Under the pieces are notes generated by a model, which did no database searches, was not told where the DNA came from, and worked only from the letters and a program-made list of their open reading frames with translations. Shown here in pieces: positions 2,936 to 61,374 of a DNA stretch of 64,000 nt. The DNA comes from Ceratodon purpureus (taxonomy: Eukaryota; Streptophyta; Bryopsida; Pseudoditrichales; Ditrichaceae). Each line of letters starts with the position of its first letter. Within the stretch, counting starts at the first letter, position 1. The DNA lies in the NCBI GenBank assembly GCA_014871385.1, contig CM026421.1, positions 22,682,865-22,746,864 on the forward strand. Reading direction: 5' to 3'. The position numbers and the translations under genes were made by a program.

Positions 2936-2949
2936 TGGGCACTTCAGGG

Positions 2950-3758
2950 TTAACCCTTTAGTGCCCAAGTGACCAGTTTCTGGTCGCTCGTGCATCTAAA
3001 TCTGAATTTCCGGAGAATCTAAGCACCAAAAGGTATCAGTGCCTCCGGGACGGATGTGGGCGTCGGCAATGAGCATCTCATGGAAAAATAATTTTTTGAT
3101 TTGGAGTTGTTACGCTATCATAATACCTATGTCCAAACTACCAAAATACTCCAAATACCTCAAGATATAGCAAATACTTACAAATACAACATATGTACTA
3201 TGTAGTATTCCTTGTGCTTGGGAGTTCGAATCTTGTTTTCTCTTTCGGGATTGTGTTCTCTTGTTCATGTTCCATAAATGTATAAATTTGGATCTTGATC
3301 AATGTACCAACTCTTTTCATATTTTGACGTATAAATTTATTATAGAAATTGTATGCGAACCTCATGTGAGGACTTTAAAATCCTTTCAAAATTTGAATAA
3401 TCATCAGAAGGTGGTATGGAAAATTGTTCCGACAAGGTATTGAAGCTACGAGTCACGTCCAAGTTTTCAAAAAGTAAAAATAAAATAATAAAAAATTGAA
3501 ATGGAGTTCAACAGAGAGTGGTTTGTGTACACATTCAATGGCAATGAAAGTATGCCTTTGAATACAAGTTATAATCTCGCAAATGAACGGTCGGATCTAC
3601 ATGAATTTTTTATAGAATATGTGAAATTGAAGTATGCTCACTTTAGTACGGTTGGATTCTTTGCTGAGAAATCCATTTGTGCAAAAATGGCAGCCATCAG
3701 GAAACACCTCATGAAAAGTGAGTTTCATGGAAAACTGGTCTGGGCACTAAAGGGTTAA
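2950..3758. mobile_element. TTAA-flanked DNA transposon, non-autonomous (T1)
   Basis: TTAA occurs at both ends (2950-2953 and 3755-3758). Inside it are inverted termini CCCTTTAGTGCCCA plus GACCAGTTT; the left end has 3 extra bases between the two blocks. TTAA target duplication and termini beginning CCC are typical of the piggyBac superfamily. The roughly 800-bp interior has one 85-codon frame (3501-3758) that runs into the right terminus and resembles no transposase I know, so the element is probably non-autonomous. The flank just left of the element (2936-2949) reads as a second, outward-facing terminus (GGGCACTTCAGGG), which makes the junction a palindrome around TTAA. Confidence 0.7.
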
Positions 3759-17099: not shown

Positions 17100-17958
17100 T
17101 TAACCCCTAATTGGCCAAAGTCCTAGAATGGGCGTGTTTGAAATTTGGGCAGATTCCTAAAAGTTCAAATTTACTTGAAATTTTTTGAAATATTCGGTGG
17201 AAAAAGGTTTTTTCAAAAGATTTATAAGGACATTTTTTTTATTTTTTTTGGATGAAGTAAGCAAAAGTTATGCTCCTCTGAGCATAAAACGCCCTTCCAC
17301 GGGCAGGCTCTCAGCCACTGTGAATGCAGCAATTTCTGCCCAAAACTGCCCAAAACTGCCCAAAACTGCCCAAATCTGCCTAAAGACAAAACTTTGAAAT
17401 TCCACCAAAAATCGAGATTTTATTTTTTTTCCAAAAATCAAAATTCCTATTTGTAGAAGAGGCACTAGAGCATGTTTCCACCATTTGGATTTTCAATCCA
17501 AGAATCTTTCACATGTTATTTTTATTGTAAAAAAACGGCCTTTGTATGTGAATTTCAGCATACCCCCTTGTGGAAATTGATGATTTTCTACACGTTCTAC
17601 ACCTTGCATGGGTATGAGATTTTGTGGACATGTACCTAACTCACCTAGGAACAAGAATTTAAAGAGGCGCCATCCAAATCTACTCAAAAAAATGGTTTTT
17701 TTGGACCCCAAAATACTGCTGTCTGCTTTTTGCAGGGTAAAAAAACCTTTTTTTTCAACTTTGAATGTTATGATCTCTCAAATGGTAAGGAATGAGAGTG
17801 TGAGATTTGACATGGACATAGACATAGAAGTTAGATACAAGATCTTACGGTTGGAAATACCAAAATTGGTTTCAATTTTGCACTATCCAGCTTGCTTTCA
17901 AAAGGGACTAGTTGGTGGCAGTTTTGAGCAAAAACACCCTTGGCCATTTAGGGGTTAA
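17100..17958. mobile_element. TTAA-flanked DNA transposon, non-autonomous (T2)
   Basis: TTAA occurs at 17100-17103 and 17955-17958. The termini are CCCCTAATTGGCCAAAG on the left and, inverted, CCCCTAAATGGCCAAGG on the right. The interior of about 850 bp has no transposase frame. Read from its right end, the element has a subterminal block with AACCGTAAGATCTTG followed by CCATTTGAGAGATCATAAC (17758-17856 on the plus strand). The same block occurs in T4 and T5, so the three are one family. An 11-bp minisatellite of CCCAAAACTGC units (17333-17379) lies inside. Confidence 0.8.
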
Positions 17959-18134
17959 AAAACATTACTATTATTATTTTTCTTGCCTAGTATAATAGTT
18001 CTCTTATTTGTGTAAATTTTATGCTCTTTAGATCTATATTCTTATAGACTTTAGTATTTGTCACTTTTTTTGAATTCAATCATAGATTTGTAGTCAATGA
18101 ATCTATTTATATATAGATGTAGTTGTTGTTATTT

Positions 18135-18910
18135 GCTGTCAATTTAACATAGGACACCCTTCATCCAGACCAATTATCAATATGAGATTTCACGCTATGA
18201 GACAACTAATACAGGTATAGTTGACATTAGTCATTTTTTTGAATTCCATCATAATCTGTTAAATGTGTTTAAATATGTCTATTGTTTCATGTTGTTTGCT
18301 GCCAAATTTATATAAGAAATCCTCTCATCTAGACCAAATGTCAGTATGAGATCTTGGACTATAAGACAGCTACAGTCATGACACACTTATAGTCAAATCT
18401 GTCACTTTTGTTGGATTCAATCATAATTTATTAATCGGGTTCAACATTTTTGTTGTTGTTGATGTTCCTGAGTCCTGACACACCTACAGCTGAATCTGTC
18501 ACTTCTTACATAGGACATCCTCTCATCTAGACCAAATGTCAGCATGATATCTCGGACTATAAGACAGCTACACTTCTTACATAGGACATCCCCTAGACCA
18601 AATGTCACTATGAGATCTTGGACTATAAGACAGCTATAGTCATGACTCACTTACAGTTGAATATGTCACTTCTTTTGGATTCAACTGTGGTCTATTAATC
18701 AGGTTCAACATGTCTGTTGTTGTTGTTCCCGTCACACCTACAGTTGAATCTGTCACTTCATTTGGATTGAACATATATGTTTCGACATGTCTGTTGTTGT
18801 TGTTCCTTCCAATTTAACATAAGATATGCTCTCACCCGAACCAAATATCAGTATGAGAACTCATCATCTCCTATAAGACACCTATTGTTATGACACACCT
18901 ATAATTGACA
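18135..18910. repeat. Degenerate minisatellite array, about 100-190-bp period
   Basis: Five or more diverged copies share a core: CATCTAGACCAAATGTCAGTATGAGATC, GGACTATAAGACAGCTA, CATGACACAC, AGTTGAATCTGTCACTT, TGGATTCAA and TTGTTGTTG. Copies vary in length through internal deletions (for example 18510-18600). There is no coding potential. The array may be the decayed interior of a larger repeat. Confidence 0.65.
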
Positions 18911-20680
18911 TAACATTTTAAAATCCATCCTGGTATTAAGTCTATGTAGAAGTGAATTTATAAGCCTTAGCAACAGAATTCATATCACCTCAATTGTACT
19001 CATGGTACAAAAATAATTTGAAATAGATTTTCTAGAATAATAAATAGAAATTTTATGGAGACATTATAAGCTTAAAATGCATCACATCAAGATTATAGTG
19101 CACTAGAAAAGTAAAATAGTCTAAATTTGTATTCTAACAATGTGGTATCAAAAGATAGAAGATTCATTAATTCATAGAGTTTTGTAATGGTATTACTTAC
19201 TATCTATAGTAATTACTCGAAGCACTAATGCAAGTCTAAAGTGTGAAAAGGCAAGATTAAAAATAAAAAATTCAAGTGTTTCTATAAATACTTTTTAAAA
19301 TAAAAATGGTTACTTGTTTCTACTGGTTCCTCTTTCTTGCTTGGTTTGGAATTATTTTGTCAATTATTTCAACTTTGTCACATTTCTCATTTTAGATGTC
19401 AAATTACTATAGATTTTAATGATTTAAATTCATATGTGCATTTCCATGTATGTTTCTTACAAAAGTAACAACATACAAATACACTACAGTAGCTTTTATG
19501 TGCGGTTCTCTTAGAGATTGTTAATAACATTGTTCATCATCCTCGTATTAACGAGATGAGTGTTTGTAACATAGGTGATGAGAAGTCACTAGGTACTATT
19601 GAAATGCATATGCAGAACTAGCTTGAAATTGCAACAACATATTTCAATCTTGGAATATTCCAACTTGTAAAGTGAAGCAGATTTACCACTACCAACTAAA
19701 AGGTCCATTTTATTTTTAATGTTTAGATGCAACAGTGAAAAAATAACATCCAAAAATTGAGCATTTTCATAAGCAAGAAATCAAAAAATATTGAGCTTGG
19801 CTTTAATGACATTCATGCTTCCTGAGTCACAACTATAAGTTGTTTCAAGAGAACAACTTGGCATCATTGTTGCACAAAACACATATTGTAGCACCATAGC
19901 AGGTTTGGCAACTGATGTATAAATATTCAATTTTTTTGGAAAACTAAGATTCATTTCTCAAAGACTAAAATTTTTATTTTTTAATTTTAGCAAAACAAAA
20001 TACTAAAAATGAGCTAAATGACTTATAACTATATATACAAATATGTATATAAATATTTTTCCTTTTTTTTTTTCATTTTAAGATTAATATTTTTTAAATG
20101 TATTTTTGACAAATTTGCTATATTGCTATAGTATAACAATTGTAATTATAGATACCGACTTAGTGTCTTCTCTCCAGCTACTTACATAACATTGTCATAT
20201 GAATAAAAGATTAAAGGCAAAAATATAGCACTAATATATTGCTTGCAAGTTCATGCAAACATTGGTGGTGGACAGAGTACGCTTTCAAGCTCCAAGAAAG
20301 AGGAGGTAAGAAATGACTCACACAATCTCTAGGATAGAGTAGACCATTGTAACAGAATCTAGAAGATAGCCAGACATCAACACGTAACACTTCTTTGTAG
20401 ACTCCAAATTAACAAACCAAGAACATGAAAACCATATTGGTGGACTTGATTCAAAGGCGGAAGTTGCAGAATCCATCACTAAAGTCCCCCAACTTTTATC
20501 TCTCTTGCAAAGAACAAGTTTGTAGTGTTGAAATTCAATTGTTGACTACACAAAATTTGTAATATCAATAAGCTCAAAGTATGTCATTGCAATTGTCAAT
20601 ATAAACAAATTGTTGTAAAGTAAAGGAACTAGCAAAGATCATGATAAAAATAACAAAAAAAAAGACAATTAATGAAAACA
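18911..20680. other. AT-rich non-coding stretch
   Basis: I see no exon or RNA gene. The motif CACCATAGCAGGTTTGGCAACT at about 19891 resembles the end of the MITE at 23983-24231 and the sequence at about 34853, so a decayed relative of that element may be present. Confidence 0.35.
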
Positions 20681-20690
20681 AGTATGCAAA

Positions 20691-20753
20691 CAATCAAAGG
20701 ACAATCAAAGGACGATCAAAGGACAATCAAAGGACAATCAAAGGACAATCAAA
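20691..20753 (+). repeat. 11-bp minisatellite AATCAAAGGAC, about six copies
   Basis: Six near-perfect tandem copies of AATCAAAGGAC; one copy has G for A (GATCAAAGGAC). The 61-codon frame through it is a translation of the repeat. Confidence 0.9.
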
Positions 20754-20988
20754 TACAAAGAACAATTGTGTAAGGGAAAAAAAAAGTGCCAAGAGAAGAA
20801 GGATTTTGCTTAGGCTGAAAAAGTAGTAGACCATAAGAAAGCAATGCTAGTGAAAGTCCATTGTGCCTGCTTACATGAGTTGAAAAAACCTTCAACTAAA
20901 CCATCAAGGTTGTCGCAAAGTGCTTGTCTTGTAAAAGAAGAAACATCTTAAAACATCAAGGCACTAGAAGATGTAGGAGTCACCATTC

Positions 20989-21231
20989 TTAACCCTTAAA
21001 CGTCAGACCCAGCCCGAGGGCCTGGATTTTTTTTTTGAGAGAATCTCGCTCATAACTTACACTCCATTATATCAAATGGGATTTCCAGAATGCCAAACTG
21101 AGCACCTTAAAGAGATCTATACTTTCTTAGAATAGAGTTCAAGAAAATTAAAAATAGAATAATGCTTAAAATGGATTTTAAAAGAGATTTTGGGTGTGGT
21201 ATCAGGAAAGCATATGACGTTTAAGGGTTAA
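20989..21231. mobile_element. TTAA-flanked MITE, 235 bp (T3)
   Basis: TTAA occurs at 20989-20992 and 21228-21231, with perfect 13-bp inverted termini CCCTTAAACGTCA just inside, so the match including TTAA is 17 bp. No coding capacity. It is the cleanest TTAA miniature element in the window and belongs to a different subfamily from T2, T4 and T5. Confidence 0.85.
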
Positions 21232-21994
21232 GAAAAGTCAGCTTTTTCTATCGTTGTTTGGAGAAAATGGAGATCTATTTGGCAACAGAAGTCAATTCTA
21301 AAGAAGCTTGTTCTAATTTTCCGCCTTTGAGGCATGTGTAAGATTGCCTTCTCTTGCGCTCATCTTTTCTCACAATTTTCTTTTTTACAATTGGCACTAA
21401 ATAAGGTCTTCTACTCTTCACCTAACATCTTCTCTCTCCTTCAATTTGGCATACATCCGCACACTACCACCTCTAGTGGACAATTTCTTTTGCATGTCAA
21501 GGACCTTCAATTCTTCCACAACAAAATTATGGATGGTCCACCCTAGTTCTAGAAGAAAGATAGGTAATGTAGGACAGAAAGGCAAAAAATATGTGAGAGC
21601 CGTTTCAAATGCTTTGTGGCTAGAGCCTAGATGTTGACTAAATCAAGCAAGACATATTAAAAAACAACCGCACACATTGTAGAAAAGGTTTTTTTTGGTG
21701 TATGAAGGCAAGGAGATGTGGTTCTATGGGTGGAATATGTCTATACATGGTGGTAAGTAGTCACATTTTTAGGTTGTGCTACTCAACAACTTTCAGCCAA
21801 ATTTAACTTACATTACAAGTCATAATACTTCAAGTTTTGGTCAAAGAAATTACGATTGGTTCAAAACTTTGATTTACAATTCATGGTATTGTTGTGACCA
21901 AAAAGTAACCCCCTACTGTGTAGAAATGGAAAGACCCACCGATCCAATTTCAATAACAAAATTCTTCACACTTCAAATTATTCTTTTATCAATT

Positions 21995-22114
21995 CACTAG
22001 TGGGAAGGGAGTTGTTCCCCTCGAAAATTTTGTAGAGGAATCGGTAACAATTGGAGGAACTGTTACCGATTCCTCCAAAACTTATCGAGGGGAAGGACTC
22101 ACTGTCCACTAGTG
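21995..22114. mobile_element. CACTA-type foldback MITE, 120 bp
   Basis: The element begins CACTAGTGG and ends in its inverse CCACTAGTG, flanked on both sides by the 3-bp direct repeat ATT. CACTA termini with a 3-bp target duplication define the CACTA/EnSpm superfamily. The whole element folds back: arms of about 50 bp with TTCCCCTCGA, TTTTG-AGAGGAATCGGTAACA and complements surround a loop of about 11 nt at 22050-22060. It is non-autonomous. A transcript would form a long hairpin able to yield small RNAs. Confidence 0.75.
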
Positions 22115-22587
22115 ATTTAAATAGTAAGAATAGTATTTTTGAATATTGTGAGGAACCTTCTTCTACAAAACCAGTTTAGTTTTATTTTTTATTTTTTTAT
22201 TTTTTTATTTTTAATAATTTATTGAAACGAGGCCATGTTTTGTAAGTTGCTGATTTTAGGACATCCAACTTTACATGTACAAAAACAAATTGTATCAAAT
22301 AACATTGGGAGGAAAAATCAAGAACAATTGAAGTGGTTATAATAATGGCAAGTATTTTTGAAAGAGCTATAAGGCTTAAAGTAACTTCTAGTGAAATACC
22401 TATGATCAACATATGACCAAGTTGATTTTGAAATGTGTATGCAAAACACTTATGACCAAGCTGATTTTTAAATTCATTTGTTATACAAATACAAAAGGCA
22501 GAATTCCTTTGCAATAACATATTTGTCTTGATTCATTGAACAAATACTGTGGCTCAATTTTATTAAAATTAGCCCTTTCACATTACT

Positions 22588-23670
22588 GCATTGGTCTGAA
22601 TCTGACTGCCATCACAGCACTTGCACTGCACTGACCCTGTTCAAATTGTACACAGTAACAATTTATACGTGGTGCCTGTAACTCGACACTGATGGGGTTG
22701 TCAACTCCCTGACCCAAAATAATGTAATGGAATGAAGGACTCATTCCCACATCAAGTTGTATCCATCACTTGCAGAAATGCATGTCTGTCAACGTGAAGT
22801 GGCTGGACCCCCTTGCTTGTTCCATTGGAAAATTTACCACTCTCTCCAGCCTGGCTGAGCTCTGGCTGGAAGGACCTGGAAGATTCTGGGGCACAATCTT
22901 GCCTGTTTGTTTTAAATATTTAATTTTTTATGTACTAATAATTTAAAAAAAATAGCTAAATTACAAAACCCGTGAGCCTGGCTGAAAGAGGTGAATGCTC
23001 GCAGGAAGGCAAGGACAACATGTGATTTGACCCAAACCAAATTCCATTCAATACCATTTCCCAGGCTTGTAAATGTGCTACAGTACATGTGCAAGCCTGA
23101 CAGTACAATGTCTTTTTGAAAAATCAGAAATTTATACATGGATGAAATACAGCAAACATGTTCTTATGCCAAATATTTCAAAGAATGTAGACAATTCTAA
23201 TCACTGTGTAACATTTCTTTTTAGTAGTTGGGCAACGCGTGAAATTTGAAGAAAAACTTGACAAATACCCAAGTTCGAACAAACTGAAAACATCTCCTAA
23301 ATCCAACATCTAGGTAGCATATTTCATGCACTAAAACACATCTCAACGTTGAACAGCATCTGAGAGGTCAAATGCACTTTTGTACCACTCCGCAGTACAT
23401 ACTGTATGCTCACCCCCAACCAAAACGACCAAACTGCAATCATTCCTTCAAACACAAATCGAGTTGGTCATACTAACAATTCCTTTTGGTCCCCACATGA
23501 CGATTCATTGGCAGCTGCCATTGGTCTGGAGTCACGGCCAAACTTGAACTGGGCCCCAATCCAAGGAAGAACGCAATCAAATGACCTTGGAGTATGTATT
23601 TTATAGCATGATTGAGCTTCAATGAGAGCTATGATCATCCAAAGTTCCGTATGCTCAAATATGAAGTGCA
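22588..23670. repeat. Right copy (B) of the duplicated spacer, middle part
   Basis: Partner of 3885-6580 (see that entry). The best-preserved pairs are 22750-22895 against 5790-5935, and 23560-23660 against 6480-6580. Both copies of the first pair could encode LSSL-x-x-L-x-L/E-x-PGRF-like residues on the plus strand, but the frames are otherwise broken, so coding is unproven. Confidence 0.55.
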
Positions 23671-23982
23671 TTATCTACCAGCGGTGTGAAATGCCAAGTA
23701 CTGCGCTGCTGAGTGAGCACTGAGCATTCCCCAAATGTTTTTGAACTATTATATTTACTGTAAAGCCAGTTTGAATGAAGGCCATCTGCTGAGATAGAAG
23801 ATATGTGTACAGTGAGGGAGTTTCTGTGCACCTTACTGCAAATAAGGCCTCACAATTTAACAGTCATGGCATTCGAATGGGTAAGTTTGGATCTAGCTCC
23901 AGGATGCTCATGAAGTCAGAAACATTCTGAATTTCTGATAGAGTAGAAAGTTTGGATGCTGGCCCTTATACCAGAAGGTACC

Positions 23983-24231
23983 GTAGCAGGGTAGCAAGGT
24001 AGCTGGTTCTTGCGCCTTCGAACAAATATATGAAAGATAAGGTTCATCAACTACAAATAACTTTAAAAATAAATTGTGTTTTCAAAAAATATTAAAAAAG
24101 TAGTCTCAAATGATTTAGAGATAGCTAAATATGACTAAAAATATTTGTTGGTATTTTTGAATCTTCAGAATTTTTGGATTTTTTGTTTTTTATTTTAGAA
24201 TTGTTTTTGCACAAACCAGCTACCCTGCTAC
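23983..24231. mobile_element. AT-rich MITE with GTAGCAGGGTAGC inverted ends
   Basis: A perfect 13-bp terminal inverted repeat, GTAGCAGGGTAGC, occurs at 23983-23995 and 24219-24231. An inner match follows (TAGCTGGTT on the left, AGCTGGTTTGTGC inverted on the right). The interior is about 220 bp and very AT-rich. I could not define a target duplication. A related end (CCATAGCAGGTTAGGCTTGTT) is at 34853-34875. The superfamily is not assigned. Confidence 0.6.
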
Positions 24232-24288
24232 ATGAACAACAGTGGGAAATTCTGAAGATGGCTGAGATGTGAGTGTCTGACCCAAATT

Positions 24289-24378
24289 ACAAAATTTCAC
24301 TTTACTCTAAACTCAATTTACAAAATGTCACTTTACTCTTAGCTCAGTTCACAAAATGTCACTTTACTCTAAACTGCA
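24289..24378 (+). repeat. 31-bp tandem repeat, about three copies
   Basis: Three tandem copies share CAAAATGTCACTTTACTCT, followed by AAACT or TAGCT and CA-TT. No function is visible. Confidence 0.8.
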
Positions 24379-24672
24379 CTGGTCATAGAATCAGTCATCA
24401 CAAAGCTGCACACCTACCCTGCGGTCCTGCCCACTTAATGGGTTTCAGAAACAAACAAACAATCAAAGCTGCAGAATATCTCGGCTGCCCTTCTTCCCAA
24501 GTTAGTCAATGGTGTCCAGCAAAATTAGAGATTACAATAATTGGGTATTTTGCATCTTTGTGGCCAAAAACATTTTCTTTGGTTTCACGGTGGTTAATCA
24601 TGGATTACACAATATTATGCTTGGTAATGAAAAAGAAATTAGTTGATGAGAGAGAGAGCCTAATCAGATATT

Positions 24673-25608
24673 TTAACCCCTAAAGGTTCAAGCCGTTTTT
24701 GAACCTACAAAACCAAAAACTGTGATTTTTGACAACCTTGTAGAAGTTGAAGTATGATTTTTAATTTTTAAATTTTTTTGATACATCCAACCGTAAGATC
24801 TTAAACCTTGCTACTTGCACTAAAACCATGTCAAATTTCAACAGTTGGATCTTTACCGTTCGAGAGATTATAACGTTCAAAGTCTACTGTTTTTTTTCCT
24901 TGGCTTTGCGCGAAAGGCATACTCTAAATGGTGCCAAGGGAGACTTGATTATTGCTACCTCAAACATTTTGCTCATACTTTTTTCGAGGTAGGTAATTAA
25001 GTTGAGCACCTCCATGCAAAATTTCAGAGTCTCATTATGCTTTTTTGGCCTTCATGCAAATTATTATCCAGAAGAAGGTGCAAAAACCACAATATAGTAA
25101 AACTTATTTGACGTGAAATGCTTTTGGTTATTTTAAAAAGTGAACGGTAAAAGTTACATCCATGAGTTTTTGAATTATTGGAAAAAATAAATTTGAAAAA
25201 TTCCTAAATCTCAAATTTTGACAAATTTTGAAAGAAAAAATTGTAAAATTACCAAAAACTGTGAAGGTTGTTTTTGTGATTTTTGGAGGCTGCCCTTGTA
25301 AAACTGGTAAACTTTTTGACTTAGGCCACTTTGGATTTGGAGTAGTAAATTTCTTATGAATACATTTCCAAAAAAAACATTCTAAAAAAACCTAATTTTA
25401 AGCTGCCCGTTTTGGACTTGAAACTTAAAATTTCTAGATGAAGGTTCTGAAAGTGAAATTTGGCTTTGAAAATTTTACCACATACACTTTGCGGTATAAG
25501 GAGCATCCAATAAAATTCTTAGGCAAAAATATTACTTTTAACCCCTTCATCTAGGCTGCCCGAAACAGCCGAGAGCCATTTTGGATTTCCAAAACCTTTA
25601 GGGGTTAA
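24673..25608. mobile_element. TTAA-flanked DNA transposon, non-autonomous (T4)
   Basis: TTAA occurs at 24673-24676 and 25605-25608, with inverted termini CCCCTAAAGGTT. The subterminal block shared with T2 lies at 24785-24882 (ATCCAACCGTAAGATCTT, then ACCGTTCGAGAGATTATAACGTTCAAAG). There is no transposase frame in the interior of about 930 bp. Its right TTAA is also the left boundary of T5, so the two related elements sit back to back. Confidence 0.7.
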
Positions 25609-26686
25609 CACCTAAAGCATCAACTCAACAGTTTTGGTATGATTTTGGGTCCGGTCAGGCTCCCTATGAGTCAAATTTTACCGGATGTGGATGTAACTTT
25701 CGCACAATATGGGAAATTGTCATATCTTCAAACAAGACCAAATTTTACTTTCATCGGGCCCGTAGTTAAGAAATAATTTGTGTTTAAAGATCAAAATTTA
25801 ATTCAGGGCAGCTGGGGGCAGGTTTGTGGCCGATGGGAGTGGTGTACCAAATCTGTGACATTCTACAGTGACTTCTAAATGATCCTTTCTGAAATGGTTT
25901 CACAATTTTTTTAAACTTTTTTTTGAAAAATCCAACCGTAGGATCTTGTTTAGAGCCATCCAATTAGACCACACACCAAGTTTTGTAAATTTTGACTGTA
26001 CGGATCTTGAGATATATTCAGTGAAAGTTCCAAGTTTTATAAAAACTTTCAGACATATCAACAGTGATTGGGTCGCCTTCTTCACCCATTTTTCCTTCAC
26101 TATTTTCTCCTCCTAAACCACAATATATGCTGTAAAATTCATATCTATTTTGGATTTATTTATTTTTTGGATTTCTTTCCTCTACAATTTCTTTTCTATA
26201 CAAATGCATGTATACACCATTCGGATTTCAAAAAATAGATGATCTTCTTAGGCATTTGTAGTGTGGAAAAAGAGCCCGTATATATGCATTTCATTTGATT
26301 CCGTCACTGGAAATGTGGTTTGTCAATGCTTTTGTATTGTCTTCAATTTTTTTGAGCATACTCCCAACTCACTTTAGAATCCAAAAATGAAGAGCCTCCA
26401 ACCACACGATCTCAAAAAATTGGCTATTTCACTCTCCGAAGTGGTTGTCCCTGCCAAGGAGTACCAAAAAAAAAAATTCTCTCAAGTTCAAACCTTATGA
26501 TCTCCCAAACGGTGAGGAGTTACAATCTAAAATTTTGTGTACACATACATATACAAGTTAGGTACTAGATCCTAATGTTAGATTCTTTATAAATACATTT
26601 AAATTTGCATAATTCTACCTTGAACTAATACAGGACAGAATTGAGTCAGAATTTTGGATTTTATGGCCAAAAACTTTAGGGGTTAG
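25605..26686. mobile_element. TTAA-type DNA transposon, degenerate ends (T5)
   Basis: The left end is TTAACACCTAAAG (25605) and the right end, inverted, is CTAACCCCTAAAG (26683-26686 reads TTAG). One base of the left terminus and one base of the right TTAA are altered. Subterminal blocks related to T2 and T4 occur near both ends: AATCCAACCGTAGGATCTTG at 25928, and the inverted AAACCTTATGATCTCCCAAACGGTGAGG at about 26490. No coding capacity is seen. Assignment rests on the termini and on family similarity. Confidence 0.55.
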
Positions 26687-27486
26687 ATAAAGTAGTACTT
26701 ACGGTAACCCATAATGGAATCAAGGATGTCTAGGATCAATAATATTGTATGATGTAGGCACCTTGCATACCACAGTAATAATGCGAATTTCCAACATTCA
26801 AGCTGCAACTCATGGAGTAACATGAATGACTGCCATCTACATGATAACCACGGTTGGCAATCATATGCTACTCAGCCACTCATCTGGCCTATAATTCATG
26901 TTTCATACAAGATTCAAACCACACTGATCAAATTTTCTTGTGAGTTGTGAGTTGTATTCTAAAAAGGAATATTTCACTGCATCATACTTTTGCCAGTAAA
27001 TCTGGTTTTCAGAAATACCATATTTTAACCCCCAACAACCCAAGGTGTTTCATAGTATGTAAGTTTTGCAACTTTGTTAATAATTTGCTTAAAGGAAAAA
27101 AATTAAAAGCATGATGTTTAGACCTTAATCATGTGGTTCAAATTCTAAAAATAGCTTAATAATTTTATTTAATGAATTTTGAAGTGTTTGGCTCTTTAAA
27201 AAAATCATTTATTATTATTTATTTTAACATTTGAATTTTTAATTTAATTTCAGAAAATGATCAACATATAAGTGTTGGAAAAAAAAAATTGAATAGCTTA
27301 ACATAATTATTTTCTCCAAATAAAAAAAATTAAAACTTAAGACAATGTTGAGGTGTTCTCCTTTGAAAATTTCTCAAAGGTGGAGTTTTACTCCAATTGA
27401 CAAAACTCAAGTTGGGTTGCAAAGTAGACTTGCTTTTCCATGACGAAAATGAGTTTTGAAATCTTAGCAGCTATTTCTATGAGCTG

Positions 27487-30471
27487 AAAGACCCGAATCC
27501 GGGATGAAATTAAGATGAACGGAAATTACAAACGAACGAATGACCAACCGAACATTCATCCAAAGCAACGACCGAGGGCCCAACCCAACAAGGGGCACAC
27601 AGGGCAGAGCCGCAAACATCCTGAGACATTTACAATGGGGGAAGTCAACCGTACCAAAGTCCTGATCTACGAGACAAGGACTATCACACTAGCACTAAGC
27701 CTAATGACAGACAACCTCTGAGGGCGCTGCCAAGCAAAGAACCTAAGAGATTAACGTTTCAATCTGGTTCCCGAGGAAACAGAGATTGAGCCCCCGGAGA
27801 CAACATGGGAACCGGGGGCGGCATTTGGGAGCCTGTAAAACCAGTACCATCCTGAGAATGGAACTGTTGATTGTGTGTCAAAGTAACGGGAGAGGAGCTA
27901 ATCCTTAGCTCCGGAGAAGAATTGTTCTGCGAAAGAGCCCTTTGGGGACGCGACCCGAAAGGTAGTTGGCGCTGAGTGTCAATAATGACGGGATGAGAGG
28001 AGTTCAGTGGGAACTCCGGGGTCCAGGAGTCCCATGGGTCAATGGACAGGGGGGTAGAGGGACGACCTCTACCCGAGGGATCTCCAAGCCAAAAATCTGC
28101 CTGCCATTGCAGGTCTTCTTGCGTTTGTAGAGAATCGGGTAAGTCCCAGCCCTGAGCTTGGTCTTCGTCTTCGGGTACGTTGGGAGCGATGCCTGCTTCT
28201 AAGTCCGCCATAATGCGTTGCAGCATTTCGTCTGCTATGGTGTCGTGATTAATTTGCGTGGGTCCTGGGCCTTGCGGGTCCTGGCTATCGAGGTTTGGTA
28301 TGGGCGTGGCCGCCTGTGGGGGAGGATCCGCAGTAGTGTCATCTGTCGGAGGAGTGGGTTGCGTAAGGTTGGCCCTAAAACGCGTGTACCTGTTGGCTAG
28401 ATCTCTTGTGAGAAATTCCCTATGCGGGACTAGCTGCCAGTGTATACCGTTTCTTCTTGTGCAGAAGATGTCGGCGTGGCACCAGGTATCTAAAAATTTC
28501 TGTTCCCGTTCTTGTTGGTTTCTTGATTTCGGTCCTGTTCTTCGTTTTGAGAGCCCTTGCCAAGCTCCCATCCCCGCTTGGACTGTCGTCTGCCACGCCC
28601 GGAATAAAGCAAAACCGATATGAAATTGCCCATCCCTTAAGTCATAAGCACACTTTTCGCACCATAAGAACCAGATTATGCACATCCTGAGTATATTCCA
28701 GGGTGTTTCATCTGTATGTTCTTGTGCCGGTGGATGCTCACCGGGACTGGGTGGTGGTCTAGTGTCTGGAGGGATTTCTGTCGGAGGTTGTAAACCTGAC
28801 AAGGCTTCCCACCAGTTCGTGATTCCTGGTCTCAGTCCTGATAGAGTCCTGATTCTTCGTAATTTGTCCCAGACGCCTTGGACCGAGGGACATGTAAAGA
28901 ATGTATGCTCGGGAGTCTCCCATTCTGGGGGGTTGCATAGGTTGCATACACCCTCATTTCCTGGACCTAATCGCATTCTCCAGTGGGCCAAGGGTAAGCC
29001 TCCTTGGCATGTCAGCCATACCATTGTTGAAATTTTCCTTGGCACCCACTTATGCCACATGTTCTGGTAGAAAATCTTACAATGATATGCATTGTATCCC
29101 TTGTAAAACATGAGCTGGGTAAAGGGAGGTGTAACGCCCTGTTTAACATTGATGATCTTACAGCCTCGTTTAGTCGTGTAATCGAAAAAATGGCCTGACT
29201 TCAGATGTCCTATAGCTTTCCAGGTCCACTCCTTGAGGTCCAGAGTCAGGTCTTTTATTCGCCCATGTTTGAGAGCGTAAACTTCCCAGTGGGGGAGAAC
29301 ATGAGGTACATATTGGGGATTGAAGCACTCCACCTTCCCCTCTAGATTTTTAAGTACGGTACGAGCTCTCGTGTAATTCCACGAATGCAGACGTACTGCG
29401 TAAGGGCCAGAGACTCTAATAAGTTTCTCCGTTTGAGCCTGTCTGCGATAAACAACCGCATCCATCTGCCCTTCCAAATACACCTTTTGTACGTGAAAGA
29501 ACTCCTCCGGGAGGTTTCTTTCTGGCTCATCAAACGTTAACCAATCTCCTTTCTTCCGGATGTAGTCTGTGTTAGGATTCCATAGAATTCCTGAGTGAAG
29601 CTCCGGGAGAATGGTTTCTATATTTTGTGATCGGGTAATCTGTCTGATGTCCTGATGGTGTAGCCATTGATGTCTCGGGTAATCCCACAGATGCCCTACT
29701 GTTGAGATCCCTTTCTCTTCCCATCTGCGGAACACTCCAGGACGGTCTTCCCCAAACATAGCGCCTTGGGGGTTAGTGATACTGGGATTGAAGAAGAGGG
29801 CTTGGCGCAGTGTTTCCTCTCGATTAGATGGTATGTTCTTCTTGGTTCCTGATCGGACCTCCAACCATGCCCCCCAGATGCCGTGCCATAAGGGGCTACC
29901 TTGATTTGTTACTTTTTTCCCTTTAAGTAGCCATTCATCGTTAGCAGGCCAATCCCCCTCGTGGCGAAGGCGGAGCTGGCTGACGCGGTGCTGGAGAAGA
30001 ACTTTCCACGGTTCGGGGCCGGGTTCCATCCCTCTCGTTATCATCTTCGCGAGTAATGCAGAAGCTTGAGCGTATGGGTCAAAAACCTTGATACCTCCCA
30101 GTGTAGTTGGTAAAACTACTGATGCCCATGCCACTCGCGCCCGAGGTTTGCCTTCAACTTTCCCGCTCCAGATGAAATTGCGAACCATTGTGCGAGCTTT
30201 GGCCAGCACGCTGCGGGATAAGTCCGCGCAGCTGGCTATGTACCAGATGGAGGCTAACACCACCTGGTTCGTCACTAGGATGCGTGCTGCCATAGATAAT
30301 GGCTTGTTGACCCAAAGGGCCAGCTTGCCTCTGATTTGAGATAATACCTTGGCATTTTTTTCTTTTTGTCCCATGTTGAATCCGAGAGGGAATCCAAGAC
30401 TAGTCACTGAGCTCCCCGCCGGGATCCACCTAAGTCCCTTATCCTGGCCCCAAGTCCATAACTGGGGGTTA
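27487..30471 (-). mobile_element. 5'-truncated LINE (non-LTR retrotransposon)
   Basis: This insertion of about 2985 bp has the 18-bp target duplication AGCTATTTCTATGAGCTG on both sides (27469-27486 and 30472-30489). It reads on the minus strand and begins inside the reverse-transcriptase domain, as expected for incomplete target-primed reverse transcription. One long frame is open from the very first bases to the stop at 27759. About 272 bp of 3' sequence follow and end CCCGGATTCGGGTCTTT, without a poly(A) tail. The exact target duplication and intact frame suggest a fairly recent event. Confidence 0.9.
27759..30470 (-). CDS. LINE ORF2 C-terminal fragment (RT thumb region, zf-RVT)
   Basis: About 900 codons remain open from the truncation point. 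The start (LRWIPAGSS-TSLGFPLGF, then KLALWVNKPLSMAARILV) matches the end of the LINE reverse transcriptase and the connection region. Further on, the motif W-x2-KISTMVWLTCQGGLP, a C-x2-C pair (VCNLC) and HTFFTC define the zf-RVT zinc-binding domain of plant LINE proteins. The C-terminal 250 residues are Pro/Gln-rich and low in complexity. The N-terminal endonuclease and the RT catalytic core (YxDD) are missing, so it cannot be autonomous. No initiation codon is meaningful here. Confidence 0.85.
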   Translation of the reverse strand, partial: NPQLWTWGQDKGLRWIPAGSSVTSLGFPLGFNMGQKEKNAKVLSQIRGKLALWVNKPLSMAARILVTNQVVLASIWYIASCADLSRSVLAKARTMVRNFIWSGKVEGKPRARVAWASVVLPTTLGGIKVFDPYAQASALLAKMITRGMEPGPEPWKVLLQHRVSQLRLRHEGDWPANDEWLLKGKKVTNQGSPLWHGIWGAWLEVRSGTKKNIPSNREETLRQALFFNPSITNPQGAMFGEDRPGVFRRWEEKGISTVGHLWDYPRHQWLHHQDIRQITRSQNIETILPELHSGILWNPNTDYIRKKGDWLTFDEPERNLPEEFFHVQKVYLEGQMDAVVYRRQAQTEKLIRVSGPYAVRLHSWNYTRARTVLKNLEGKVECFNPQYVPHVLPHWEVYALKHGRIKDLTLDLKEWTWKAIGHLKSGHFFDYTTKRGCKIINVKQGVTPPFTQLMFYKGYNAYHCKIFYQNMWHKWVPRKISTMVWLTCQGGLPLAHWRMRLGPGNEGVCNLCNPPEWETPEHTFFTCPSVQGVWDKLRRIRTLSGLRPGITNWWEALSGLQPPTEIPPDTRPPPSPGEHPPAQEHTDETPWNILRMCIIWFLWCEKCAYDLRDGQFHIGFALFRAWQTTVQAGMGAWQGLSKRRTGPKSRNQQEREQKFLDTWCHADIFCTRRNGIHWQLVPHREFLTRDLANRYTRFRANLTQPTPPTDDTTADPPPQAATPIPNLDSQDPQGPGPTQINHDTIADEMLQRIMADLEAGIAPNVPEDEDQAQGWDLPDSLQTQEDLQWQADFWLGDPSGRGRPSTPLSIDPWDSWTPEFPLNSSHPVIIDTQRQLPFGSRPQRALSQNNSSPELRISSSPVTLTHNQQFHSQDGTGFTGSQMPPPVPMLSPGAQSLFPREPD

Positions 30472-31099
30472 AGCTATTTCTATGAGCTGCTTAGATTTCA
30501 GTTCCTATTTATAAGAAATGGTCGCTTGGGAACTCAGGGGTTAAATTTCTTACAAATGGGAACTGTACTAAAAATTGAAATTAGTGATTCAAATTCAAAA
30601 ACATCTAAATTGTCCCAAAGTAAGCCATAACTTGTCATGACTCATGGGTTTCATCCCCATGTCTTAGTGAGTGTCACCGTCAAATACCTCGGTCCTGACT
30701 CCTCAAGGGGATGTGAGAAAAGCATGCCAGCACTGTCATTTTCTGTAAAAGCATATGGTTTTCTCTTTTTTTCGCAGAACCACTATTGGTCAGTGGCAGA
30801 CATCTTTATATTGGGAGGGTTGGCAAGTAATGGTCAACTGGTACATTGCAACAGCTGATTATCGTGATGAACACCTTAAGTGTGGGATTTTGACATTTGG
30901 CCAGAACTTTTCAAAAGCTTCGGAGATTTTATCCTCCTTGCAAGGAATTCAACATCCAAGGAGAATCCAAACCTGTAAACTTGAAAAACAATACCCATAC
31001 CATGTATTACATACAAGTCAATGAACACACATACAAGACAATTGCAAGTGATATTGTATTCGCGCACTCACAACAACGCCCCTCGTGGCTGGCTTGGCA

Positions 31100-46140: not shown

Positions 46141-46410
46141 TAAACAACACTTCTCAGCTCCTCATGAGTCCGTGATTCCCAGCCCCGATTGACACATGAT
46201 GGACGCCGCCTCCGGACAAATGGCTCCCCAGACCATCACAAACTCAGATGCACCAACATCCCACACCTTCTTCGACAGGCTCATAAAATCTACCAAAAAG
46301 AGACATCAAAAGCAGCCTCGCTCCGGCCACGACTGAGCTCCCCAAACCCCTCGTTCCCAAAAGGGCCGTGACTCAGCCCACCCTGCCCTGTTGGCCTCCC
46401 ACAGCCCCGG

Positions 46411-46464
46411 CCACGTCACCCCAAATCTACCAACACCCCCATTGGCCCCTCCCAACTATATAAA
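46411..46464 (+). promoter_or_regulatory. ELIP copy 1 promoter: CCACGTCA box and TATATAAA
   Basis: The TATA box TATATAAA is at 46457-46464, about 200 bp before the ATG. Upstream are CCACGTCA (46411-46418), an ACGT-core element of the type bound by HY5-class bZIP factors, and CCATTGG. The same three elements with the same spacing occur in the other arm. HY5 control of ELIP genes is known in flowering plants; here it is inference. Confidence 0.65.
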
Positions 46465-46660
46465 CCCATGCACCACCTGATTCTGCATATATTCAAGCTC
46501 ACATTCCAACACTAGCACTCAGAATCATCGATATACACTCACAGGACACACTTCCATTATTACTAGCACAAACATCGATCATAGATCATTTTCAAGGCGA
46601 AGCTTAGATTATCGTTGATATTTACAGCTTCCGAGAGAGTCTAGAATCGAATCTACTACG

Positions 46661-47365
46661 ATGGCAGCGGCGATGACCAACATGGTGATGACTGTCAGGG
46701 CTGATGGCTTGCAGGCCTTGCCGTTGCTGCAGACCAGCAAGTTTAGCAAGGTTGCAGGTGCGCGAGTGATGGCGGCTCCGAGGGTGCCCAGGACGTTGTT
46801 GGCGGGGTCAGTGCGGTGCGAGTCCGGGAAAAATCCCATCGCCGACGTGCGGGAGGCGGTGGACCGCAGTACGAAGAAGGTGATCACGGAGGACGAGATT
46901 CTGAGGAACCAGGAGACGAATGAGTCGGAGAAGAAGTCGGTGATGGGCACGGAGCCGACGTCGGGGGCGCCGTGGCCGCGGCCCGAGGTGGAGAGGCGGC
47001 CGGAGACGGGCAGCAAGTCGTTCTGGAGCGTGTTCGCGTTCGATGGCGCGGCGCCGGAGACGATCAACGGGCGGCTGGCGATGGTGGGGATGGTGTGGGC
47101 CGTGGTGGGCGAGCAGATGACGGGGCAGACGGTGGTGGAGCAGCTGGTCGGGCCGGGGCAGACGGGGCTGCTGTACTTCCTGGTGGCGGCGCAGGTGCTG
47201 ACGTACGCGTCGCTGGTGCCGATCATGAGCGGCGAGTCCACGGACGCGCGGCGGTCGGGGCCGTTCACGGCGAGAGCGGAGCGATGGAACGGGCGCATGG
47301 CGATGCTGGGGTTCTTCTCGCTGGTGGTGACGGAGATGTTCACGCACTCTGCCATCTTCGGCTGA
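46661..47365 (+). CDS. ELIP: Early light-induced protein, copy 1 (chloroplast)
   Basis: Intronless, 234 aa. ELIPs are thylakoid chlorophyll/carotenoid-binding proteins of the LHC superfamily that accumulate under high light, cold or desiccation and limit photo-oxidative damage. The Ala/Ser/Thr/Arg-rich N-terminus (about residues 1-50) fits a chloroplast transit peptide. Three membrane helices are visible: helix I at about 132-152 (ETINGRLAMVGMVWAVVGEQ), helix II at about 168-189, and helix III at about 206-229 (ERWNGRMAMLGFFSLVVTE). Helices I and III carry the paired E-x-x-NGR-x-AM chlorophyll-binding motif. Third positions are strongly GC-rich, unlike the flanks. It differs from copy 2 at seven residues, all within the first 43. 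Long antisense frames here are shadows of this codon bias. Confidence 0.95.
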   Translation: MAAAMTNMVMTVRADGLQALPLLQTSKFSKVAGARVMAAPRVPRTLLAGSVRCESGKNPIADVREAVDRSTKKVITEDEILRNQETNESEKKSVMGTEPTSGAPWPRPEVERRPETGSKSFWSVFAFDGAAPETINGRLAMVGMVWAVVGEQMTGQTVVEQLVGPGQTGLLYFLVAAQVLTYASLVPIMSGESTDARRSGPFTARAERWNGRMAMLGFFSLVVTEMFTHSAIFG

Positions 47366-47590
47366 ACCAGCACTGTGATGTGTAAATGAGCCCGTTGCCG
47401 GTTTTGATGAATTTGTAGGAGCTGTGCAGTTTTTGGGCGGCGTGTACAGAGGGCGATAGAGTGTATATAGAGTGTGCAATTTTTGATAGCTGATTTTCGC
47501 AAATTCGAGGCATTATTGGTGATGAATTGAGGCTGTATTCTGATTTTTAGGCTGTGCGAAGTAGAAGTTTTCACCGACTTAGAATGAGGA

Positions 47591-59880: not shown

Positions 59881-60103
59881 CCCATTCTAAGCCAGTGAAG
59901 ACTTCTACTTCACACAGCCTAAGAATCCGACTACAACTTCAATTCATCACCAATAATTTCTCGCATTTGCGAAGATCAGCTATCAAAAATCGCACACTCT
60001 ATGTACACTCCATCGCCCTCTGTACACGCCGCCCAAAAACTGCACAGCTCCTACAAATTCATCAAAACGGGCAACGGGCTCATTTACACATCCCAGTGCT
60101 GGT

Positions 60104-60808
60104 TCAGCCGAAGATGGCAGAGTGCGTGAACATCTCCGTCACCACCAGCGAGAAGAACCCCAGCATCGCCATGCGCCCGTTCCATCGCTCCGCCCTCGCC
60201 GTGAACGGCCCCGACCGCCGCGCGTCCGTGGACTCGCCGCTCATGATCGGCACCAGCGACGCGTACGTCAGCACCTGCGCCGCCACCAGGAAGTACAGCA
60301 GCCCCGTCTGCCCCGGCCCGACCAGCTGCTCCACCACCGTCTGCCCCGTCATCTGCTCGCCCACCACGGCCCACACCATCCCCACCATCGCCAGCCGCCC
60401 GTTGATCGTCTCCGGCGCCGCGCCGTCGAACGCGAACACGCTCCAGAACGACTTGCTGCCCGTCTCCGGCCGCCTCTCCACCTCGGGCCGCGGCCACGGC
60501 GCCCCCGACGTCGGCTCCGTGCCCATCACCGACTTCTTCTCCGACTCATTCGTCTCCTGGTTCCTCAGAATCTCGTCCTCCGTGATCACCTTCTTCGTGC
60601 TGCGGTCCACCGCCTCCCGCACGTCGGCGATGGGATTCTTCCCGGACTCGCACCGCACTGACCCCGCCAACAACGTCCTGGACACCCTCGGAGCCGCCAT
60701 CACTCGCGCACCTACAAGCTTACTAAACTTGCTGGTCTGCAGCGACGGCAAGGCCTGCAAGCCATCAGACCTGACAGTCACCGCCATGTTGGTCATCGCC
60801 GCTGCCAT
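60104..60808 (-). CDS. ELIP: Early light-induced protein, copy 2 (chloroplast)
   Basis: Intronless, 234 aa, minus strand. Role and architecture are the same as copy 1: transit peptide, three thylakoid helices, NGR-x-AM motifs in helices I and III. Residues 44-234 are identical to copy 1. The seven differences (positions 9, 10, 14, 22, 31, 32 and 43) all lie in the transit region. In the stretches of the identical part that I compared by eye, only a few silent changes were seen. Both copies keep intact frames, TATA boxes and ACGT elements, so both are probably expressed. Such uneven divergence suggests gene conversion between the arms. Confidence 0.95.
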   Translation of the reverse strand: MAAAMTNMAVTVRSDGLQALPSLQTSKFSKLVGARVMAAPRVSRTLLAGSVRCESGKNPIADVREAVDRSTKKVITEDEILRNQETNESEKKSVMGTEPTSGAPWPRPEVERRPETGSKSFWSVFAFDGAAPETINGRLAMVGMVWAVVGEQMTGQTVVEQLVGPGQTGLLYFLVAAQVLTYASLVPIMSGESTDARRSGPFTARAERWNGRMAMLGFFSLVVTEMFTHSAIFG

Positions 60809-61001
60809 CGTAGTAGATTCGGTTCTAGACTCTCTCGGAAGCTGTAGATCAACGATAATCTAAGCTTCGCCTTGAAAATGATCTATGATCGATATTGTGA
60901 TAGTAATAATGTAAGTGTGTCCTGTGAGTGTGTATCGATAATTCTCAATTACACTAGTGTTGGAATGTGAGTTGGAATGTAGAAATCAGGTGGTGCATGG
61001 G

Positions 61002-61055
61002 TTTATATAGTTGGGAGGGGCCAATGGGGGTGTTGGTAGATTTGGGGTGACGTGG
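61002..61055 (-). promoter_or_regulatory. ELIP copy 2 promoter: TATATAAA and CCACGTCA box
   Basis: Mirror of the copy 1 promoter. TATATAAA is at 61009-61002 and CCACGTCA at 61055-61048 on the minus strand, with CCATTGG between. Preservation of the box, its spacing and the TATA element in both arms supports a functional promoter. Confidence 0.65.
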
Positions 61056-61374
61056 CCGGGGCTGTGGGAGGCCAACAGGGCAGGGTGGGCTGAGTCACGG
61101 CTCTTTTGGGAACGAGGGGTTTGGGGGAGCTCAGTCGTGGCCGGAGCGAGGCTGCTTTCGATGTCTCTTTTTGGTAGATTTTATGAGGTGGAAGAAGGTG
61201 TGGGATGTTGGTGCATCTGAGTTTGTGATGGTCTGGGAAGCCATTTGTCCGGAGGCGGCGTCCCTCATGTGTCAATCGGGACTGGGAATCACGGACTCAT
61301 GAGGAGGAGTTGAGAAGTGTTGTTTACAGGGGAGGTCCAGAGTGTAGACAAGGAGTTAGTTTGAGTTACTCTAT

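Follow-up and report, generated by a model that had tools for sequence, protein, structure and literature searches.

Five short inverted-repeat elements (T1 to T5) bounded by the tetranucleotide TTAA, four of which share a subterminal block of about 110 bp, are present in a stretch of 64,000 nucleotides from Ceratodon purpureus (GenBank assembly GCA_014871385.1, contig CM026421.1, positions 22,682,865 to 22,746,864 of the forward strand), the whole of which is referred to here as the window. With a probability of about 0.8, judged from their sequence, these elements are nonautonomous DNA transposons of the piggyBac type, similar to miniature inverted-repeat transposable elements (MITEs), in which the block most likely acts as an internal binding or regulatory site of the transposase. 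The results cover the copies within this one 64-kb window of one plant, five to six elements in number, together with published papers. An earlier annotation made from the letters of the window, referred to as the original prediction, had proposed a family of TTAA-flanked, piggyBac-style elements with a shared subterminal motif, an interpretation that is partly supported overall.

The coordinates and tips that had been proposed for the five elements, including the TTAG at the right end of T5, were correct on re-reading the sequence, and are as follows:

T1, 2950..3758, minus strand: 809 bp, TTAA-bounded, tips CCCTTTAGTGCCCA at both ends, perfect arms of 18 bp including TTAA, block at the right end; the top-scoring TTAA pair.
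T2, 17100..17958, minus strand: 859 bp, TTAA-bounded, tips CCCCTAAWTGGCCAA, block at the right end.
T3, 20989..21231, no strand assigned: 243 bp, TTAA-bounded, tips CCCTTAAACGTCA, arms of 20 bp at 100% identity with three arm bases beyond TTAA; no block found.
T4, 24673..25608, plus strand: 936 bp, TTAA-bounded, tips CCCCTAAAGGTT, arms of 16 bp at 100% identity, block at the left end.
T5, 25605..26686, minus strand: 1082 bp, TTAA and tip CACCTAAAG on the left, TTAG and tip CCCCTAAAG on the right, block at the right end.

TTAA stands at both bounds of T1 to T4, and in T5 it stands on the left, with TTAG on the right. The inverted tips of T1 to T4 extend over 12-15 bp and start with CCCT or CCCC, with one mismatch in T2; the CCCCT start is found in T2, in T4 and at the right end of T5, the left tip of T5 being CACC. 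T5 reads TTAACACCTAAAG at its left end and CTTTAGGGGTTAG at its right end, and the match between its two tips is shorter than in T1 to T4. T5 represents a weaker case, resting on this shorter match and on its block. The TTAA at 25605-25608 is common to T4 and T5.

The strength of these boundaries is evident from a scan of all TTAA pairs lying 150-2500 bp apart (6,962 pairs, with a score of 20 or more counted as high), in which T1, T2, T3 and T4 occupy the top four places with scores of 28.9, 26.4, 26.0 and 24.3, the next pair reaching 17.2. When each of the 256 possible 4-mers was taken as the flank, TTAA alone had more than one high-scoring pair, and TTCA had one, a poly-A match. An inverted-repeat scan carried out without requiring TTAA placed T2, T3, T1 and T4 at ranks 1, 2, 3 and 5 among the 10 pairs listed, which do not include T5. 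T1 to T5 are confirmed as inverted-repeat elements at TTAA.

The assignment of these elements to the piggyBac superfamily follows from their bounds, tips and size and from the lack of recognisable coding sequence, all of which fit a piggyBac-type MITE. The hallmarks of piggyBac, a superfamily familiar chiefly from animals, are given as duplication of TTAA and inverted tips of about 12-19 bp that start with CC[C/T]T (PMC2872659), and its tip motifs as including CCCT and CCCTTT (PMC12732532); the tips CCCCTAA, CCCTTTAG and CCCTTAAA fit both the CC[C/T]T rule, the CCCCT tips having one more C, and the latter motifs. The CAC tip at the left end of T5 has a precedent in bee piggyBac elements, where such a tip occurs (PMC10140906). 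No transposase was found by Pfam in any of the 38 listed open reading frames (ORFs) of at least 120 amino acids in the window, and the 10 scanned out of 40 ORFs of at least 45 amino acids overlapping T1, T2, T4 and T5 gave no match above the Pfam curated cut-off, in agreement with the original prediction that the copies lack a transposase. Its description of nonautonomous, TTAA-bounded, piggyBac-style elements falling into several tip subfamilies is likewise well supported by the ends.

Beneath these differing tips lies the shared block, copies of which are located at the following positions:

3547..3661, minus strand: block in T1, found by the block profile and by pairwise alignment, weak in the leave-one-out search.
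17745..17861, minus strand: block in T2, found by the block profile, in leave-one-out searches and by pairwise alignment.
24780..24897, plus strand: block in T4, found by the same three approaches.
26472..26586, minus strand: block at the right end of T5, again found by all three.
25920..26012, plus strand: partial block on the left side of T5, about 320 bp inside the left end, with a well-kept first half and E values of 5.3e-5 to 5.3e-3 on the window under the four leave-one-out models.

Measured from the outer TTAA base, the distance to the start of the block is 97 bp in both T1 and T2, 107 bp in T4 and 100 bp in T5. A profile built from the four ends finds, by construction, the right end of T2, the left end of T4 and the right ends of T5 and T1 in the window at E values of 4.8e-27 to 1.1e-20, followed by the left end of T5 at 0.006; no other match below 0.1 was found in the window. 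In leave-one-out searches of the whole window with nhmmer, the omitted copy was refound at E values of 7.5e-16 (T2, right), 7.5e-11 (T4, left) and 1.3e-8 (T5, right). Within the window, the motif TCCAACCGT is confined to four copies, one each in T1, T2, T4 and T5, of which that in T5 is the left one. At the opposite ends of T1, T2 and T4, and in T3 and the probable further element T6 described below, neither the profile nor the leave-one-out models gave a clear block match. The shared block of the original prediction is confirmed at the right end of T2, the left end of T4 and the right end of T5, but in T1, T2 and T4 it occupies one end only and not both, and the double occurrence proposed for T5 comprises a good right copy and a left copy that is partial and lies far inside. 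T1, which had been placed in another subfamily, carries it at the same distance as the others: weak as its leave-one-out match is, the T1 block sits where expected, contains an exact CCAACCGTA in its first half and aligns with the three other blocks at z-scores of 4.9, 5.8 and 4.3.

The block outscores its flanks in all six pairs of block-bearing ends, with z-scores of 4.3-11.5 and identities of 62-70%, these scores not being blind since the block was chosen for likeness. In the same six pairs, the spacer that separates the tip from the block has z-scores of -0.0 to 3.4, lowered because the spacer is shorter than the block, and identities of 48-56%. Over the 100 bp after the block, the z-score is at most 1.8 in five of the six pairs and 5.6 in the remaining one (right ends of T2 and T5), and over the 88 bp beyond that stretch it ranges from 0.4 to 3.9, the highest value belonging to the right end of T2 and the left end of T4. 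With these cautions, the block stands out as a better-kept stretch beneath differing tips.

Common descent is the main rival explanation for the block: the four elements would have arisen by internal deletion from one autonomous parent and kept its end, with the block as a leftover. This possibility is appreciable, although less likely than not, and it is compatible with the preferred explanation, differing from it on function only. It accounts for the one-sided position of the block in T1, T2 and T4, with a shared orientation and a nearly equal distance, as expected of a homologous end, and for the similarity of the right ends of T2 and T5 just past the block and of T2 right and T4 left further in. 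Nevertheless, in the same pairs similarity has decayed far more on either side of the block than within it, so that plain descent without constraint is insufficient unless divergence has been uneven.

Under the preferred explanation, that of piggyBac-type elements with a functional internal site, the elements would be moved by a transposase whose gene lies elsewhere: after binding to the CCC(C)T tips and to internal sites, it would excise the elements at TTAA and reintegrate them into other TTAA sites, with duplication of the TTAA. The block would most likely provide this transposase with an internal site for binding or regulation and would set one end apart from the other, and selection for mobility would maintain it. 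A transposase-binding role is plausible by analogy with animal systems, as described in the available parts of PMC10140906 and PMC11707139: the Trichoplusia ni piggyBac and the Myotis piggyBat also combine TTAA with unlike ends and with internal sites inside those ends, which are placed differently at the two ends. The internal sites of T. ni piggyBac consist of a 19-bp repeat located 3 bp from the 5' inverted repeat and 31 bp from the 3' inverted repeat, and the left-end repeats of piggyBat extend to about bp 120 (PMC10140906, PMC11707139); these arrangements differ from the block described here, which spans 110 bp, starts about 100 bp in, is found at one end and comes with no transposase seen. 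Some subterminal sequence of piggyBat is reported to restrain activity (PMC11707139). A further proposal, tentative and rather unlikely, extends this analogy: a single transposase might drive several tip subfamilies through the shared one-sided 110-bp site rather than through the tips alone, the tips diverging while the internal site stays fixed, and the site might restrain transposition as in piggyBat.

The two limits on the z-scores noted above count against the preferred explanation, and several other observations weigh on the same side. The elements are few, with four bearing the block, and T3 and T6 lack it. When the right end of T1 was omitted from the model, it was refound at E values of 0.048 on the window and 0.0028 on the set of ends, and in its second half only. 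The identity of the block is modest, at 62-70% versus 48-56% in the spacer; moreover, two spacer pairs (z-scores of 3.4 and 3.3) and the later stretches of T2 right with T5 right (5.6) and with T4 left (3.9) also lie above noise. The family assignment is drawn solely from the element ends, in copies within the window. The use of TTAA is shared with Kolobok and with Sola3. Finally, at about 100-215 bp from the end, the block is placed more internally than the sites of T. ni and touches only the innermost piggyBat site (PMC10140906, PMC11707139).

Regarding the superfamily, it is improbable that the elements are nonautonomous members of another TTAA-targeting group, Kolobok or Sola3. Kolobok also generates TTAA duplications and has been found in chlorophytes and red algae (PMC9587614), and Sola entries are present in the C-fern table (PMC6890710). 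The tips of Kolobok are described as 5'-RR...YY-3' (PMC9587614), yet both tips of each of T1 to T5 start with 5'-CC or 5'-CA; Kolobok fails for this reason and was rejected, the likeness being confined to the TTAA duplication. For Sola3, no description of the tips was found in the available parts of the literature searched.

A still less probable alternative is that of Tc1/mariner-like elements with TA duplications and ACCC tips, in which the outer T and A would reflect chance or target preference. The reading T[TA]ACCC...GGGT[TA]A fits TTAACCC...GGGTTAA equally well, and the right end of T5 has a G outside the TA; however, all eight outer bases of T1 to T4 are T on the left or A on the right, and although one of the scans selected for TTAA, the scan without TTAA recovered the same four elements. 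ACCC tips are not known from any mariner group. The possibility that the inverted repeats arose by chance in an AT-rich region, for which the 414 TTAA copies in the window would provide many opportunities, was rejected as practically negligible on the evidence of the scan made without the TTAA requirement and of 200 dinucleotide shuffles, in which pairs scoring at least 20 numbered 0.015 per window (three in all, the highest at 21.7) versus the four observed.

Several other candidates concerning the block were considered. A palindrome common to the blocks was rejected, as AAGATCTT is contained in the first half of the T2 and T4 blocks and is absent from the printed blocks of T1 and the right end of T5. 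A single IMG/VR match to CCGTTYGRGAGATYATAAC, in which no element-like tips were seen by eye in 601 bases, was judged a chance match. The two-part block pattern had no matches in genome contigs and none in viral contigs, a result that says little because these databases hold prokaryotes and viruses. In its second half (24857-24884 in T4 and the corresponding places in T1, T2 and T5), the block resembles a motif common in insect long and short interspersed nuclear elements (LINEs and SINEs), a likeness that could be coincidental.

Beyond the five elements, which the original prediction had listed correctly, two additional ends at 2953 and 30544, both on the minus strand, had been missed. These belong to the following features:

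T0, 2937..2953, minus strand: lone right end of a T1-type element, with tip CCCTGAAGTGCCC on the minus strand and two mismatches to the 17-mer T1 tip.
T6, 27025..30544, no strand assigned: T1-type TTAA element of 517 bp without the LINE that splits it, tips CCCC..CCCAAG.
LINE copy (zf-RVT) in T6, 27487..30471, minus strand: perfect 18-bp direct repeats at 27469-27486 and 30472-30489.

T0 and T1 stand back to back and have the TTAA at 2950-2953 in common; no left partner of T0 was found, the best of 63 left candidates matching at just 9 of 18 positions. The T1-type end at 30544 pairs best with the TTAA at 27025, with 11 of 18 tip matches among 114 candidates, tied with the left end of T4. The right tip of T6 matches the left tip of T1 at 84% over 32 alignment columns, and T6 is probably a T1-type TTAA element, without the block (best block match E 1.5). 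The LINE contains an open frame of 904 amino acids (27759-30473) that includes zf-RVT, and has inserted into T6 with an 18-bp target duplication; no poly-T or poly-A run was seen by eye at its 3' junction. T1 to T6, with the probable T6 counted, cover 4,442 of the 64,000 bases of the window (6.9%). As a separate observation, 11 of the 47 copies of GGGCAG/CTGCCC in the window (both strands) lie inside T2 (six), T4 (three) and T5 (two), with none in T1; this exceeds the sequence share of T2, T4 and T5, but four of the copies form one 10-bp tandem repeat in T2. They are located mostly near the block-less ends (T2 17147-17371, T4 25290-25561, T5 25806-25821).

The gene content of the window identifies it as plant nuclear DNA, consistent with the plant host that had been proposed: five cellulose synthase ORFs lie on the minus strand at 10.6-13.7 kb (Pfam Cellulose_synt, E values of 1.4e-50 to 5.7e-100), and a chlorophyll a/b-binding-like gene is present twice, at 46.6 and 60.1 kb (E 1.2e-9 for either copy). 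These two ELIP-like copies form an inverted pair (46141-47586 and 59883-61326) with 95% identity over 1,453 alignment columns, a recent duplication. A further small inverted-repeat element without TTAA bounds, with arms GTAGCAGGGTAGC, was found at 23983-24231 by the scan that did not require TTAA. Between T2 and T3, a degenerate direct-repeat patch with units of about 60-130 bp, CTAGACCAAATGTCAGTATGAGATCT..., extends over 18056-18908, and a tandem repeat of the 11-bp unit ACAATCAAAGG in about five to six copies occupies 20690-20760. Rfam and ARAGORN gave no matches in the window.

Among known systems, the piggyBac/TTAA MITEs of corals (CMITEs, PMC2872659) are similar in their TTAA sites, in their CC[C/T]T tips (AmiPB1 tip CCCTTTCCCGTCC), in having no transposase of their own, in their tandem copies and in a family assembled by insertion of one element, and the two places of shared TTAA seen here (T0/T1 and T4/T5) recall these tandem copies. 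They differ in that the host is an animal, that an autonomous element with identical tips has been isolated and that the available text describes no shared subterminal block. For land plants, the original prediction had held that piggyBac is not a commonly annotated superfamily, a view that holds in part. It is contradicted by PMC4438587, which includes PiggyBac among the superfamilies in all groups studied, land plants among them, by the C-fern table with 1,230 PiggyBac entries and 122,417 bases (PMC6890710), and by a plant review counting PiggyBac as one of seven angiosperm MITE superfamilies (PMC10004981). It agrees better with the "occasional" occurrences in plants, red algae being named, of PMC12732532 and with the single entry of 75 bases in the genome table of the grass Stipa (PMC8319324). 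As far as the available text extends, the annotations in PMC4438587, PMC6890710, PMC10004981 and PMC8319324 share with T1 to T5 the superfamily name and the kind of host but are table or list entries without structure, and the literature searched yielded no account of piggyBac elements from land plants that carry a block of this kind. The occurrence of piggyBac in land plants is already in print, and the one-sided block common to different tips is the unusual part, not met in that literature.

If borne out genome-wide, these findings would reveal a land plant densely populated by piggyBac-type MITEs (6.9% of the window with T6), the superfamily being a minor entry in the available C-fern and Stipa genome tables (PMC6890710, PMC8319324). 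The elements would then provide a natural set in which different tips are combined with one internal site, from which the part of the end read by a piggyBac-type transposase could be worked out, and they might lead to a TTAA transposon native to plants.

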